From positions 1 to 64,000 of the forward strand of contig CAJJBO010000006.1 of NCBI GenBank assembly GCA_905182485.1: a stretch of 64,000 nucleotides of DNA, given 5' to 3'. The translations under genes were made by a program, and so were the position numbers. Under the pieces are notes generated by a model. The model had not been told where the DNA came from, ran no database searches, and was given only the letters and a program-made list of their open reading frames with translations. Numbering within the stretch: position 1 is the first letter of the stretch; every line of letters begins with the position of its first letter. Shown piece by piece: positions 2,987 through 38,563 of this stretch. Source of the stretch: an uncultured Luminiphilus sp. (GTDB taxonomy: Bacteria; Pseudomonadota; Gammaproteobacteria; Pseudomonadales; Halieaceae).

Positions 2987-4624
2987 TTACTCAGCGGTAA
3001 TAAAGGGTCCGTCGACGCAAATTCGGCGACCATCTGGCGACGCACAGGCGCCACAAATCCCCACGCCACACTTCGTCAAATAATCGATGGCGCTGAAAAT
3101 GCGATCTGCCGGGACAAATTGTTGTTGTACCGCTTCGCTGGCATGAATCATGGGTGCCGGCCCACAGTTATAGAAAATCATCTTCTCCAGTGCGGCGGCT
3201 GATTGCTCGGCTAAAAAGGCGGCCAACGCATCGCTGACGCGGCCTTCGAATCCTGCGCTGCCATCGTCTGTCGCAATTGTGACCCGAGCTGCATTTTCGC
3301 ACTCCTCACGGAAGTACAGTCGGTTAGCAGTTCGCGCACCGACAAAGATGTCAGCGGGTTGTTCCGCTGAACCAAAATCTTCAGCAATTTGCAGTACCGC
3401 AGCCAGACCCGTGCCGCCCGCGACACAGACGATATGCGCATCATCAGGAGGGGAGACGGCAACCCCATGGGGGCCTCTCAAGTAAATCGTCTCGCCTGGT
3501 GAGACTTGGTAACAGGCATCGGTAAACGGCCCGACATTGATCACTGCCAATCTGACTGGGTTTGCGGTAAGGCAAGAGAATGGCTTTTCGCCCACGCCGG
3601 GTATCCAGACAAAGACATATTCTCCTGCGCGGATATCGAGGCTGCCATCTAAAGTAACCACACTGATGTCGTCACAGACGGGCTTATTGTCTGTCACCTG
3701 ATACGGATTAAAGCTCATATCAAGGTCGAAGCGAACCTGCTCGGCGGCTCGATCTGTTTGCTGGTTCATATCGTGCGCGAGATCAGTAAAGTAATGACCC
3801 AATGCCTGGGTATCGAGCCCGGTAAGCCCTGATCCAATGCCAAAAATGGTGGCGCCACAGTGCGCTACTGCGCGGCAGTCCGCGGCAGAAGAAAGACCAC
3901 CACAACCGATTAAGGGTAAATCGGTCACAGCGCGCAGTGCCGCTAGTGCCTTCAAGGTCACGGGTAAAACGCCTTTCCCCGACATCCCACCCAGCCCGTT
4001 ACTGAGTATGGGGTGACCATGACTCTCGGTGTAGCCGGGTCCTGTGGTGTTAATCGCGCACAGCCCCGCAGCGCCGCCCGCTAGTGCGGCTTTTCCAATT
4101 ACGGCGATATCGTCCACGTTGGGCGTGAGTTTGGCGATAACCGGTATCTCCACCGCGTCACAGACCGCGGCAACGATGTCGCGCACCATATCCGGATCTT
4201 GTCCCATGGCCATGCCATAGCCTTTGGCGTGGGGGCAGGAGAGATTAAGCTCCAGACCGTCTGCGACGGGGGCTAGCTGCCGGGCCACAGCGACAAATTC
4301 TTCAATGGAGCCTCCAAATATGGAGACGAGTAAAAATCGGTCTTCTGGCACTGTCAGCGTGCGGAGACCCTCAAGGGCGTCTTCTACGCCTGGGTTGGTT
4401 AAGCCGATAGCGTTGACGAAACAACCCGGCGCATACTGGCTGTAGACGGGTTCTCGATATCCCAGCCGAGGCTCAAAACCGATACTTTTTGTTGTGATCA
4501 CGCCAATCTCAGGGATCGTATCGATCACGCGCTGAATAATGGAAGGCGCGGTGGTAACAATCCCCGATGGAATCGTAAAGGGACCGGATAGCTGCTTTCC
4601 GAGAAACTCGGTGGTCAAGGTCAT
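2987..4624 (-). CDS. Dihydroorotate dehydrogenase / PyrK-like reductase fusion
   Basis: One continuous 545-residue frame joins two proteins that are usually separate. Residues 1 to about 300 are a class 1 dihydroorotate dehydrogenase: NAIGLTN (71-77) for orotate, NLSCPH with the catalytic-type Cys130, and AKLTPN with Lys165 for FMN. Residues from about 310 resemble PyrK, the electron-transfer subunit: flavin site GEYVFVWIPGVGEKPFSC, a nucleotide-binding VAGGTGLAA, and a C-terminal 2Fe-2S cluster site with Cys519, 524, 527 and 536. The expected role is oxidation of dihydroorotate to orotate in pyrimidine synthesis with NAD-type acceptors, with both subunits in one chain. In the orotate loop His replaces the usual second Asn (NLSCPN), so a related substrate is possible. 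No frameshift is seen. Confidence 0.85.
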   Translation of the reverse strand: MTLTTEFLGKQLSGPFTIPSGIVTTAPSIIQRVIDTIPEIGVITTKSIGFEPRLGYREPVYSQYAPGCFVNAIGLTNPGVEDALEGLRTLTVPEDRFLLVSIFGGSIEEFVAVARQLAPVADGLELNLSCPHAKGYGMAMGQDPDMVRDIVAAVCDAVEIPVIAKLTPNVDDIAVIGKAALAGGAAGLCAINTTGPGYTESHGHPILSNGLGGMSGKGVLPVTLKALAALRAVTDLPLIGCGGLSSAADCRAVAHCGATIFGIGSGLTGLDTQALGHYFTDLAHDMNQQTDRAAEQVRFDLDMSFNPYQVTDNKPVCDDISVVTLDGSLDIRAGEYVFVWIPGVGEKPFSCLTANPVRLAVINVGPFTDACYQVSPGETIYLRGPHGVAVSPPDDAHIVCVAGGTGLAAVLQIAEDFGSAEQPADIFVGARTANRLYFREECENAARVTIATDDGSAGFEGRVSDALAAFLAEQSAAALEKMIFYNCGPAPMIHASEAVQQQFVPADRIFSAIDYLTKCGVGICGACASPDGRRICVDGPFITAE

Positions 4625-23901: not shown

Positions 23902-24008
23902 CAGGTCGTTGTCGCTTCAGCGGTTTCTGGATCGGCAGGACGCAGCGGTCCCTGCTGTCCACAGCCGGCGGCACAGATTAAGATCAGTGCGATAATAGCA
24001 GCCTTCAC
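23901..24008 (-). CDS. lptM: LptM (YifL/LppL-type) small lipoprotein
   Basis: A 35-residue lipoprotein, start GTG at 24008, signal AALIL-type helix ending in AAGC (Cys16), then GQQGPLRPADPE. The CGQQGPLYxP-like start is the mark of LptM, which helps mature the LptD lipopolysaccharide translocon. Too short for normal ORF thresholds; it is buried at the end of a longer frame. Classic placement upstream of lysA. Confidence 0.85.
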   Translation of the reverse strand: MKAAIIALILICAAGCGQQGPLRPADPETAEATTT

Positions 24009-24120
24009 AGTTTGACCTCGACAAAACTCACAGTATAACAGTGAGTGAAAGTGCTCATCGACCAATGGCGATAATGCCGAAGGGTAATAGTCGCGCAATG
24101 ACGGCATAAGGAATCGACAC

Positions 24121-24438
24121 ATGGCAGGTAATACGTACTTTGAACGGATCGAAGTTATTTTTGAGCAGGTGGAAACCGGACTAGAGGAACTTCCCGATGA
24201 TCTCGATATCCGCACCGCCGAGGGTGTGATTAACGTAACTTTTGGCAATGGCGTGGTGTTTGTCTTCAGTCGGCAGCCACCTACTGAACAGCTCTGGCTC
24301 GCAACGCCGGGTGGTGGTTTCCACTATCAGTGGGACGACGCTCAGGAAATGTGGCGCGATACGAAAACCGGGGAGTCGTTTCACCAGGTGTTGGTGTCAG
24401 AGTTGGCGCAACATGTTGGTCTCACGCTCGACTGGTAG
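24121..24438 (+). CDS. cyaY: Frataxin-like iron-sulfur regulator CyaY
   Basis: A 105-residue frataxin. It carries the acidic first helix (FERIEVIFEQVETGLEELPD), the strand INVTFGNGVVFVFSRQPPTEQLWLA-type region with QLWLA, and the C-terminal WRDTKTGESF. CyaY binds iron and tunes IscS in iron-sulfur assembly. Divergent from lptM-lysA, as in Pseudomonas and E. coli. Complete, start ATG at 24121. Confidence 0.93.
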   Translation: MAGNTYFERIEVIFEQVETGLEELPDDLDIRTAEGVINVTFGNGVVFVFSRQPPTEQLWLATPGGGFHYQWDDAQEMWRDTKTGESFHQVLVSELAQHVGLTLDW

Positions 24439-24442
24439 GCAC

Positions 24443-25401
24443 ATGCTCGTTCGGACCATTAGCTTGCTCAGTGGCGCTTTGCTGATGGCGCCAGTAGTGG
24501 CTTTGGACTAGCAGCACCTCAGATCGCGAGGAGTATACGCCTTTTTATAGTGGATGCCAGTCCTTTTGCAGATGAGGAAGAAGAGGATTTCGAATTATTA
24601 AAAGGTTTTAAGAAGACTTTTATTAACCCAATAATAGTTGAGGAATCTGGCGATGAGTGGGAAATGGAAGAAGGTTGCTTAAGTATTCCGGATGTACGTG
24701 AGATGGTATATCGCCCAGAGCAAGTAGCTTGGGTGCAACACGCGCGGGGCTTCATGGACCCACTGATTTCAGACTGGCATGCTTTTTTTGGTCTGCCAAA
24801 TGGAAATCGGGAAGGCTATCCCGTCAACGAGCTTCAGTATCGTTTAGATCAACCCCGCCATGAAGTGGCACTCAACAATAAAGTATCGGGTTTGGGCGAC
24901 GTGCAAGTGGCACTGAGTCGCAACATGAGTCTGAAAGAAGGGCCTCAGGTGGCACTCAGCGTCGGCATGAAAGCAGCCACCGGAGAAGAAGCCGATTGGC
25001 TCGGTAGTGGGGCCACGGATTACTGGGCGCTAGCGCGGGTATCGGGAGATTATTCAGGCCGCTTGCCGCTTGTCTGGCATGGGCAAATCGGGATGACTCG
25101 CGCTGGCGTCAGCGACCTGATGGGCCCAAATCAAAAGCGTTCACTGTGGTTTGGCGGCGTATCGCTAGCGTGGCCGTTTCGAGACAAGTGGTCACTATTG
25201 GCGCAAATTGATGCGCATAGTGCATTAGGCGATGGCAACCTGAACGCCCTGACCCGGCCCGCAGGGATATTGAGTATGGCGCTGCGTTGGCATACCTCAC
25301 CAAAATGGACGTGGGACTTGGGGTTTAGCGAGGACCTGGTGGTGGAGTCGGCGCCCGATATCACGTTTATGCTGACAGCGCGTTATGTCGCGAGCCCTTA
25401 G
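24443..25401 (+). pseudogene. DUF3187 outer-membrane protein gene disrupted by a peptide deformylase fragment
   Basis: Three pieces lie in order. (1) ATG 24443 encodes a signal peptide (MLVRTISLLSGALLMAPVVA) that meets a stop at 24509-24511. (2) In another frame, about 24500-24725 encodes the core of a peptide deformylase: GLAAPQ, FINPIIVEESGDEW and EEGCLSIPD, but not the later HExxH metal site. (3) In frame with piece 2, from QHARGFMDPLISDWHAFFGL onward, is the C-terminal two-thirds of a DUF3187 protein. The deformylase part is about 39 percent G+C and Bacteroidetes-like in sequence (DEEEEDFELLKGFKKTF), unlike the neighbours. The normal DUF3187 N-terminal part is missing. Either real illegitimate recombination or a chimeric assembly. 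Confidence 0.8.
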
Positions 25402-26798
25402 CGATTCAGTTTCGTTTGCGCCAATGTGATCGCTGCCCGCACTTGGTTCGGTGCAGTGCCCCCAATATGATCTCGGGCCGCTACCGAGCCTTCCAGTGTG
25501 AGGACTTGGTAGACGTCATGTTCGATACCAGCATGAAATGTTTTCAGGGTCTCCAGCGAACAGTCCGCCAGATCGCACTCCGCGTCGATGCAGTGAGCAA
25601 CCGCTTTACCGACCACTTCGTGGGCATCGCGAAAGGCCACGCCGGCACGCACCAGGTAATCGGCCAAATCAGTCGCAGTCGCAAAGCCCTTCAGCGCCGC
25701 ATTGCGCATCGCCGCCGAGTGCGCTTCGATCGTAGGCACCATGTCTGCGAAAGCTTTGAGACAGTCGTTGAGCGTGTTGACGCTGTCAAATAGCGCCTCT
25801 TTGTCTTCCTGATTATCTTTGTTGTAAGCCAGCGGCTGCGCTTTCATCAGTGTCAGTAATGCGACGAGATTACCGGTGGTTCGTCCCGATTTACCACGCA
25901 CCAGCTCAGGTACATCAGGATTTTTTTTCTGCGGCATGATGGAAGAGCCGGTACAGAAACGGTCGGGCAGACTGATAAAGCCGAACTGGGCAGACGTCCA
26001 CAAAATGAGTTCTTCAGACATCCGCGAAAGGTGATTGAGTATTAGCGCTGCAGCGGCGCAGAACTCGATAGCAAAGTCTCGATCGGCGACGCTGTCGAGT
26101 GAGTTGTTAGTCGGCCCTGTAAAACCTAATGCGATGGCTGTCTGCTCCCTGTCAATCGGAAAGGTCGTGCCTGCTAATGCCGCGGCACCCAGCGGTGATT
26201 GATTTAACCGCTGTCGACAATCCAGTAGTCGGCCGTGATCACGATCCAGCATTTCGTACCACGCCATTAGGTGGTGGCCAAAAGTAACAGGTTGCGCCAC
26301 TTGAAGGTGGGTGAAGCCTGGCATGACGGTCTCTGTATGTTGCGCAGCCAGTCCGACAATGCCGGATTGGAGGCGGGCGAGCTGTCCGCAAATGATATCG
26401 ATCTCAGTGCGCAGATAGAGCCTCATATCGGTCGCCACTTGATCGTTGCGGGAGCGCCCGGTGTGCAATTTTTTGCCGACATCGCCAATTAACTCGGTCA
26501 GGCGTGCCTCAATGTTCATATGAACGTCTTCTCGTTCCACGGACCACTGAAACGCACCCGCTTCGATTTCGGCGAGCACCCGCGCTAACCCTTCTTGAAT
26601 CGCGATATTTTCAGCGGCTGTCAGCACACCAACGGCTTCTAACATGCTGGCGTGCGCACGCGACCCTGCAATGTCATAGCTGGCCAGCTCTCGATCGAAG
26701 GCCTCTGAGGCTGTAAATCGCTGAACAAAACGGTCGGTCGGCTCGCTAAATCTGCCGCCCCATAGCTCCTGTCCGACTTTTGATTTTTCGTCACTCAT
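25398..26798 (-). CDS. argH: Argininosuccinate lyase
   Basis: A 466-residue lyase that splits argininosuccinate into arginine and fumarate, the last step of arginine synthesis. The fumarase-superfamily signature [12 protein letters not shown] is clear, with [12 protein letters not shown] and the His in [14 protein letters not shown]. Complete. It converges with the DUF3187 gene (four-base overlap of stops) and is divergent from hemC, the common arrangement in this group. Confidence 0.96.
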
Positions 26799-38143: not shown

Positions 38144-38392
38144 ATGCGAATCTATGGATGGTTAAAAGAGTTGGCAGACCGCCGAGGATCAGACCTTTAT
38201 TTGGCAACCGGTGCACCGGCTTGCGCCAAGTTCGATGGGGCGCTATTTGACTTGTGTCAGGCAGGCCTGATTTCGGAAAAAGAAGCCCTGCACAACGCGG
38301 ATTCCGAAAATAACTTGCGCTTAAAGTTCAAGCTTGAGGGTGATCAAACGCAACCCGAGGTGTCCCGTTTTACGATGGCGTCAGATGCTTAA
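38144..38392 (+). pseudogene. Internally deleted pilU (type IV pilus retraction ATPase remnant)
   Basis: An 82-residue frame that joins two ends of PilU. Residues 1-33 equal the PilU/PilT N-terminus (GSDLYLATGAPACAKFDG); residues 34-82 equal its extreme C-terminus (LFDLCQAGLISEKEAL, NADSENNLRLKFKLEG). The nearly 300 residues between, with the ATPase domain, are missing in frame. The junction falls at codons for FDGAL, which could occur at both original ends (KFDG.L and TFDGALF), suggesting recombination or assembly collapse at a short direct repeat. AGGAG is 11 bases before the ATG. No full pilT or pilU is in the window. Confidence 0.72.
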
Positions 38393-38477
38393 GATGGGCC
38401 AAGGCAGTACGGAATTGAAAGGCCTACCCATCCACGTTTGATGCTGAGCAAGTGCTCAGATAGCAGCATGCTCAAAA

Positions 38478-38527
38478 AATAGATCAGCGTAATAGATCAG
38501 CGTAATAGATCAGCGTAATAGATCAGT
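38478..38527. repeat. 13-base tandem repeat and G-run
   Basis: Unit AATAGATCAGCGT is repeated three times exactly (38478-38490, 38491-38503, 38504-38516) plus ten bases of a fourth. A run of ten G follows at 38530-38539, then CACCCC. It lies in the 171-base gap between the pilU remnant and the VWA gene stop. Short tandem repeats and G-runs here may be unstable. Confidence 0.9.
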
Positions 38528-38563
38528 GAGGGGGGGGGGCACCCCATTGATTTGCTGAGGGCG

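Follow-up and report, generated by a model that had tools for sequence, protein, structure and literature searches.

A Cryomorphaceae-type deformylase fragment in place of part of a DUF3187 gene in an uncultured Luminiphilus sp.

The DUF3187 gene as assembled

The window, i.e., the whole stretch of 64,000 nucleotides analysed here, represents nearly all of contig C6 (64,613 bp) of an uncultured Luminiphilus sp. The host genome is a 2.17 Mb draft of 42 contigs, with a completeness of 69.6% and a contamination of 3%. The DUF3187 gene (24443–25401) is located between cyaY (24121–24438; Pfam Frataxin_Cyay) and a minus-strand ORF (25398–26798), which is presumably argH. As assembled, the gene was found to consist of three parts, all on the plus strand. 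The 5′ remnant (24443–24511) is a signal-peptide-like ORF of 22 codons, MLVRTISLLSGALLMAPVVALD, which ends at a TAG codon (24509–24511) and is made of host DNA up to position 24506. It is followed by a foreign patch of 221 bp (24507–24727), an internal fragment of a Cryomorphaceae-type peptide deformylase gene (pdf) that stands for 246 bp of host DNA. The 3′ remnant (24728–25401) is open and has the reading frame of the patch, the two forming a single open frame of 312 codons. The left joint (24503–24506) is marked by TTGG, a 4-bp microhomology between host flank and donor gene, and at the right joint (24727–24728) zero bases are in common.

In Pfam, one open frame (24466–25398) was matched by Pep_deformylase (PF01327; profile positions 40–111 of 156; 65.8 bits against a cut-off of 22.8) and then by DUF3187, confirming the original prediction, made from the letters of this stretch, of a deformylase core in a DUF3187 gene. 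The DUF3187 match in the tail (PF11383, 75.1 bits) covers profile positions 99–318 of 320 only, and the predicted loss of the N-terminal region is thus borne out. All parts had been taken to be in frame; this holds for the patch and the tail, but not for the signal peptide, which is out of frame with both because of the 25-bp difference between the foreign (221 bp) and lost (246 bp) segments. The earliest ATG, GTG or TTG codon of the chimeric frame is a GTG at 24550, within the patch. With the profile match beginning at 99 and the TAG at 24509, no full-length DUF3187 protein with an in-frame signal peptide is encoded; since the signal-peptide ORF ends at this TAG, the gene is broken as assembled. 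Judging from its sequence, the assembled gene would be a null allele with an inert deformylase core, and no function is expected for the chimeric ORF. Loss of DUF3187 is probably tolerable, because, of the 58 genomes searched, the host among them, 29 were found to have the domain; the figure was 15 of 31 among those with a completeness of at least 90% and a contamination of at most 5%.

Source of the patch, the lost host segment and a shared 22-bp word

Over 24503–24727, the window was found to be identical at 216 of 225 bases (96%), without gaps, to the pdf at locus L033. This pdf is part of a 197-codon ORF on contig CAJJCK010000023.1, from a MAG titled "uncultured Cryomorphaceae bacterium FRAM18_bin126", in agreement with the Bacteroidetes-type deformylase proposed originally. 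The MAG title makes a marine flavobacterium the likely donor type. The 225 bp that can be aligned to L033 include the 4 bp common to the host flank, beyond which the foreign extent is 221 bp; the earlier bounds of 24500–24725 are corrected to 24507–24727 (24503–24727 as aligned). The G+C content was computed to be 0.389 over 24541–24720, matching a previous hand count of about 39%, and 0.416 over 24507–24727, compared with 0.547 for the window, 0.565 for the DUF3187 tail and 0.401 for the L033 contig.

Peptide deformylases are characterised by motif 1 (GxGLAAxQ), motif 2 (EGCLS) and motif 3, the HExxH metal site. The translated patch contains GLAAPQ, INPIIVEESGDEW and EEGCLSIPD, all as listed before, so that motifs 1 and 2 are present as GFGLAAPQ and EEGCLSIP; the first residues of GFGLAAPQ are encoded by the host flank. 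HExxH is absent from the chimeric frame, as had also been noted, and the Pfam match stops at 111 of 156. Unlike the L033 gene, the patch is an internal fragment only, without start codon, HExxH or stop codon.

A closer donor was sought in 88 genomes of the G078 family (G078 included), of which 48 gave matches; the best match after L033 was that of G150, at 88%, and the true donor was not found among them. Phage carriage of the pdf piece was considered and rejected, a 38-mer of the patch being present in 0 IMG/VR contigs and blastn (E 1e-5) giving 0 matches among 50,697 phage records. The joint words (a left 22-mer and a right 24-mer), searched as exact matches, were also present in 0 IMG/VR contigs. 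Movement of the host's own pdf into the site was rejected, since that gene is complete at C3:152787–153236.

What was lost at the site? The flanks were compared with the DUF3187 genes of close relatives, as suggested with the original prediction. Three genomes of the same genus, G012, G023 and G004, carry a DUF3187 gene that is intact across the site, and they align without gaps on both sides of it. Identities to the window in these three genomes were 95%, 96% and 85% over 24001–24506, 95%, 96% and 83% over 24121–24506, and 95%, 94% and 88% in the DUF3187 tail, the gapless alignment resuming over 24728–25600. Exactly 246 bp lie between the joint points in all three relatives (loci L020, L024 and L025), against 221 bp in the window. 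The event is a substitution of 246 bp, and not the insertion that was originally described. Displacement of the lost segment to another place in the host assembly was looked for and not found. Among 20,000 random host/donor joints, at least 4 shared bases were observed in 1.6%. A search with the patch alone in 57 genomes of the genus, counting the host, gave only the patch itself and one 22-mer of G012 (C8:24848–24869), which falls within the 246 bp missing from the window. The remaining 56 genomes did not contain the patch, a result defined by this patch-alone search, in which every candidate was scored; a search with the patch and the gene together scored 7 candidates per genome.

The 22-bp word (24637–24658, plus strand), hereafter called the anchor, is the main clue to the mechanism. 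The foreign piece and the G012 version of the lost segment agree in it at 22/22 positions, and G023 and G004 have 21/22 and 20/22. When the patch was compared with 484 off-site 246-bp segments from both strands of a 30-kb G012 contig, the highest score over 22 bases was 18 in 2 segments, 17 in 2 and at most 16 in 480. The L033 pdf, used in place of the patch, scored 20 at the G012 site against an off-site maximum of 17 (6 of 484), and the G150 pdf also scored 20 at the G012 site. In an exact-match control, 4 of 1008 overlapping segments reached 22, which are taken to be those over the site, and all others reached at most 11; in the reverse control, 2838 overlapping segments from flavobacterial loci were compared with the lost segment as it stands in G012, and no exact match exceeded 16 bases, a length reached by 4 of them. 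Because the anchor scores 22/22 against at most 18 off-site, sequence determined the choice of site, be the process a biological or a computational one. The joints, with 4 bp of homology on the left and 0 on the right, are 130 and 69 bp away from the anchor, and of the arms around it the left one measures 137 bases in the host versus 130 in the patch, the right one 87 versus 69.

The 9 differences between the patch and L033 comprise 8 synonymous changes and 1 Ile/Val exchange; being mostly synonymous, they suggest drift in a working pdf prior to transfer, with no decay visible since. Two of the 9, at 24637 and 24648, fall inside the anchor; L033 has A at both, and the patch agrees with G012 there. 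The donor family contains such bases as well, with T at 24648 in G150 (L048) and G at 24637 in L052 and L053 (2 of 17 aligned pdf loci), so that donor variants and host-derived bases are indistinguishable at these positions. The dN/dS of the DUF3187 tail was 0.16 and 0.23 relative to the two sisters and 0.18 between the sisters, the low values indicating that the gene was disrupted only recently, or else remains intact in cells. Old pseudogenisation was sought as a raised nonsynonymous rate in the tail, where private nonsynonymous/synonymous changes numbered 4/5 in the window versus 13/27 in the two sisters together; the Fisher P of 0.70 is uninformative. The lysA comparison with G023 was left out of the rate analysis because of a frame difference. 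In G023 (L078, contig C9), lysA apparently has this frame difference relative to both the window and G012.

Recombination event or assembly artefact

At about an even chance, we favour a real and very recent patch substitution in this bacterium. A short single-stranded DNA from a Cryomorphaceae-like flavobacterium would have entered the cell, and the middle of the strand would have annealed to the host DUF3187 gene through 22 bases of identity or near-identity. The ends would then have been joined without homologous recombination, on TTGG at the left and on zero homology at the right, possibly by lagging-strand integration at replication. As the outcome, 246 host bases would have given way to 221 foreign bases by short-patch double illegitimate recombination, and a null allele would have resulted, the frameshift severing the signal peptide and the deformylase core being inert. 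We infer uptake, strand annealing and ligation, as well as the presence of the chimeric DNA in cells at all. A real event is favoured because the substitution has exact ends and flanks that are colinear in three relatives, and because one would expect a template switch or k-mer crossover to fall on the anchor itself. ComEC was detected in 38 of 57 genus genomes, the sister G012 among them, which counts for a real event, but it gave no match in the host (69.6% complete) or in the sister G023, which counts against it. This reading is weakened by the draft state of the genome, with its 42 contigs, and by the confinement of the patch to one of the genus genomes searched. We know of no natural patch of such size.

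A more specific version is held tentatively, at somewhat under an even chance. It proposes a natural cross-phylum, anchor-guided short-patch substitution, in which single-stranded DNA from a member of Bacteroidota would have overwritten a quarter kilobase through one internal 22-base match, the host-like bases at 24637 and 24648 being traces of heteroduplex repair. If this holds, similar patches should be findable in ocean genomes by comparing close relatives. A real event would provide a wild, between-phyla example in which donor type, recipient, both joints and annealing anchor are readable, and would suggest searching for substitutions with an internal word of at least 20 bases common to the lost segment.

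The original prediction had named both an assembly chimera and illegitimate transfer, and both have been kept as leading readings. An artefact of assembly, gap filling or read correction, which we consider a serious contender falling a little short of an even chance, would mean that the common 22-mer drew reads from a co-occurring Cryomorphaceae member onto the host contig, where they overwrote about 246 bp of thinly covered host DNA, and that the gene is really intact. We read the host record as a draft metagenomic assembly, and its fragmentation is consistent with such a fault. A k of 21 is used by common assemblers and seeders, and the 22-bp word is longer than this. The purifying selection on the DUF3187 tail is as for an intact gene; a second odd joint on the contig points the same way, as does the fact that none of the other 56 genomes searched in the genus carries the patch. 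In addition, the title of the donor-type MAG bears FRAM18, the sample prefix of a Fram Strait metagenome study (PMC8254474), making a Cryomorphaceae member a plausible neighbour. However, a k-mer tangle would be expected to switch at the shared word, while the joints lie at distances of 130 and 69 bp and overlap by 4 and 0 bp. L033 itself matches exactly over only 10 bp at the anchor, too short to seed a k-mer for an L033-like donor. Beyond the patch, no Cryomorphaceae DNA was detected in a comparison of 381 kb of the host (window included) with 120 kb of the 1.6 Mb of the donor MAG, the whole host genome gave no match to the remainder of the donor contig, and the missing host segment does not recur in the assembly. 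About 183 kb of the host was aligned to the sister G023, and no further foreign coding patch was recognised there by G+C content, translation and blastn against the collected loci. If it is an artefact, the locus is a gene-breaking chimera with 225 bases of another phylum that is not expected to shift whole-contig contamination scores.

The second gene-breaking joint on the contig may mean poor assembly. It lies near 38238 in a T2SSE-family gene (38144–38392), presumably pilU-like, which has 368 codons in G023 but only 82 in the window, 858 bp having been lost in frame at a short imperfect repeat. The G023 copy scores 142 bits with the T2SSE profile of Pfam, the remnant in the window has no Pfam match, and G004 also has about 858 bp of extra DNA at this site. 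The loss may be genuine or may be another fault of the assembly. Just after the remnant, at 38421–38551, identity to G023 was observed to be 0.27–0.58 in the 60-bp windows listed, with 36 bp extra in the window. In the alignment to G023, five other breaks between blocks were found, including the deletion at 38.2 kb, together with a few gaps of 28–36 bp and some spots of low identity. The four further breaks span 179–325 bp in the host (4359–4567 and 5550–5874 of C10 (L105), 56702–56880 of C3 (16702–16880 of L095) and 9772–10040 of C5 (L099)), and blastn against the loci collected here gave no match for them except themselves.

An in-vitro chimera, arising by template switching in library PCR or whole-genome amplification and retained in a contig of low coverage, is improbable: amplification chimeras carry short microhomology at their joints, which the left joint resembles, but a polymerase switch would leave one joint, and a colinear return 246 bp further on without homology would need ligation. 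Least credible is a functional fusion of the outer-membrane DUF3187 protein with a deformylase-derived domain, for which the common open frame of patch and tail speaks, but against which stand the out-of-frame signal peptide, the first start codon inside the patch, the truncated Pfam match lacking HExxH and the absence of the patch from the other genus genomes searched.

Comparison with known recombination modes

Which known mode does a real patch substitution resemble? Homology-facilitated illegitimate recombination was reportedly described by de Vries and Wackernagel in 2002. In this mode, an anchor is present on one side and a microhomology joint at the opposite end (PMC4437187). The DUF3187 locus is similar in combining a short homologous donor anchor with a microhomology joint, but it has its anchor in the interior and no more than 4 bp of homology at either end, so that a one-sided anchor is lacking.

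Short-patch double illegitimate recombination is said to have been reported by Harms et al. in PNAS in 2016, and to our knowledge the mode is known only from the laboratory. In this mode, short heterologous DNA replaces host bases at joints of low homology with microhomology-aided annealing, as would be the case in the DUF3187 gene; the published patches are reportedly shorter than the present one, a case read from sequence in which 221 bp occupy the place of 246 bp and the 22-bp anchor is central. A literature search for the full name of the mode gave no match. The mode has been described as supposedly insignificant in natural populations (PMC7192050). At the present locus, a short host segment was swapped for a foreign one (246 to 221 bp) between colinear flanks, with microhomology of 4 bp at the left, 0 bp at the right and 22 bp internally. 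Overall, an internal anchor with distant joints fits strand annealing with double illegitimate recombination better than the known k-mer crossovers.
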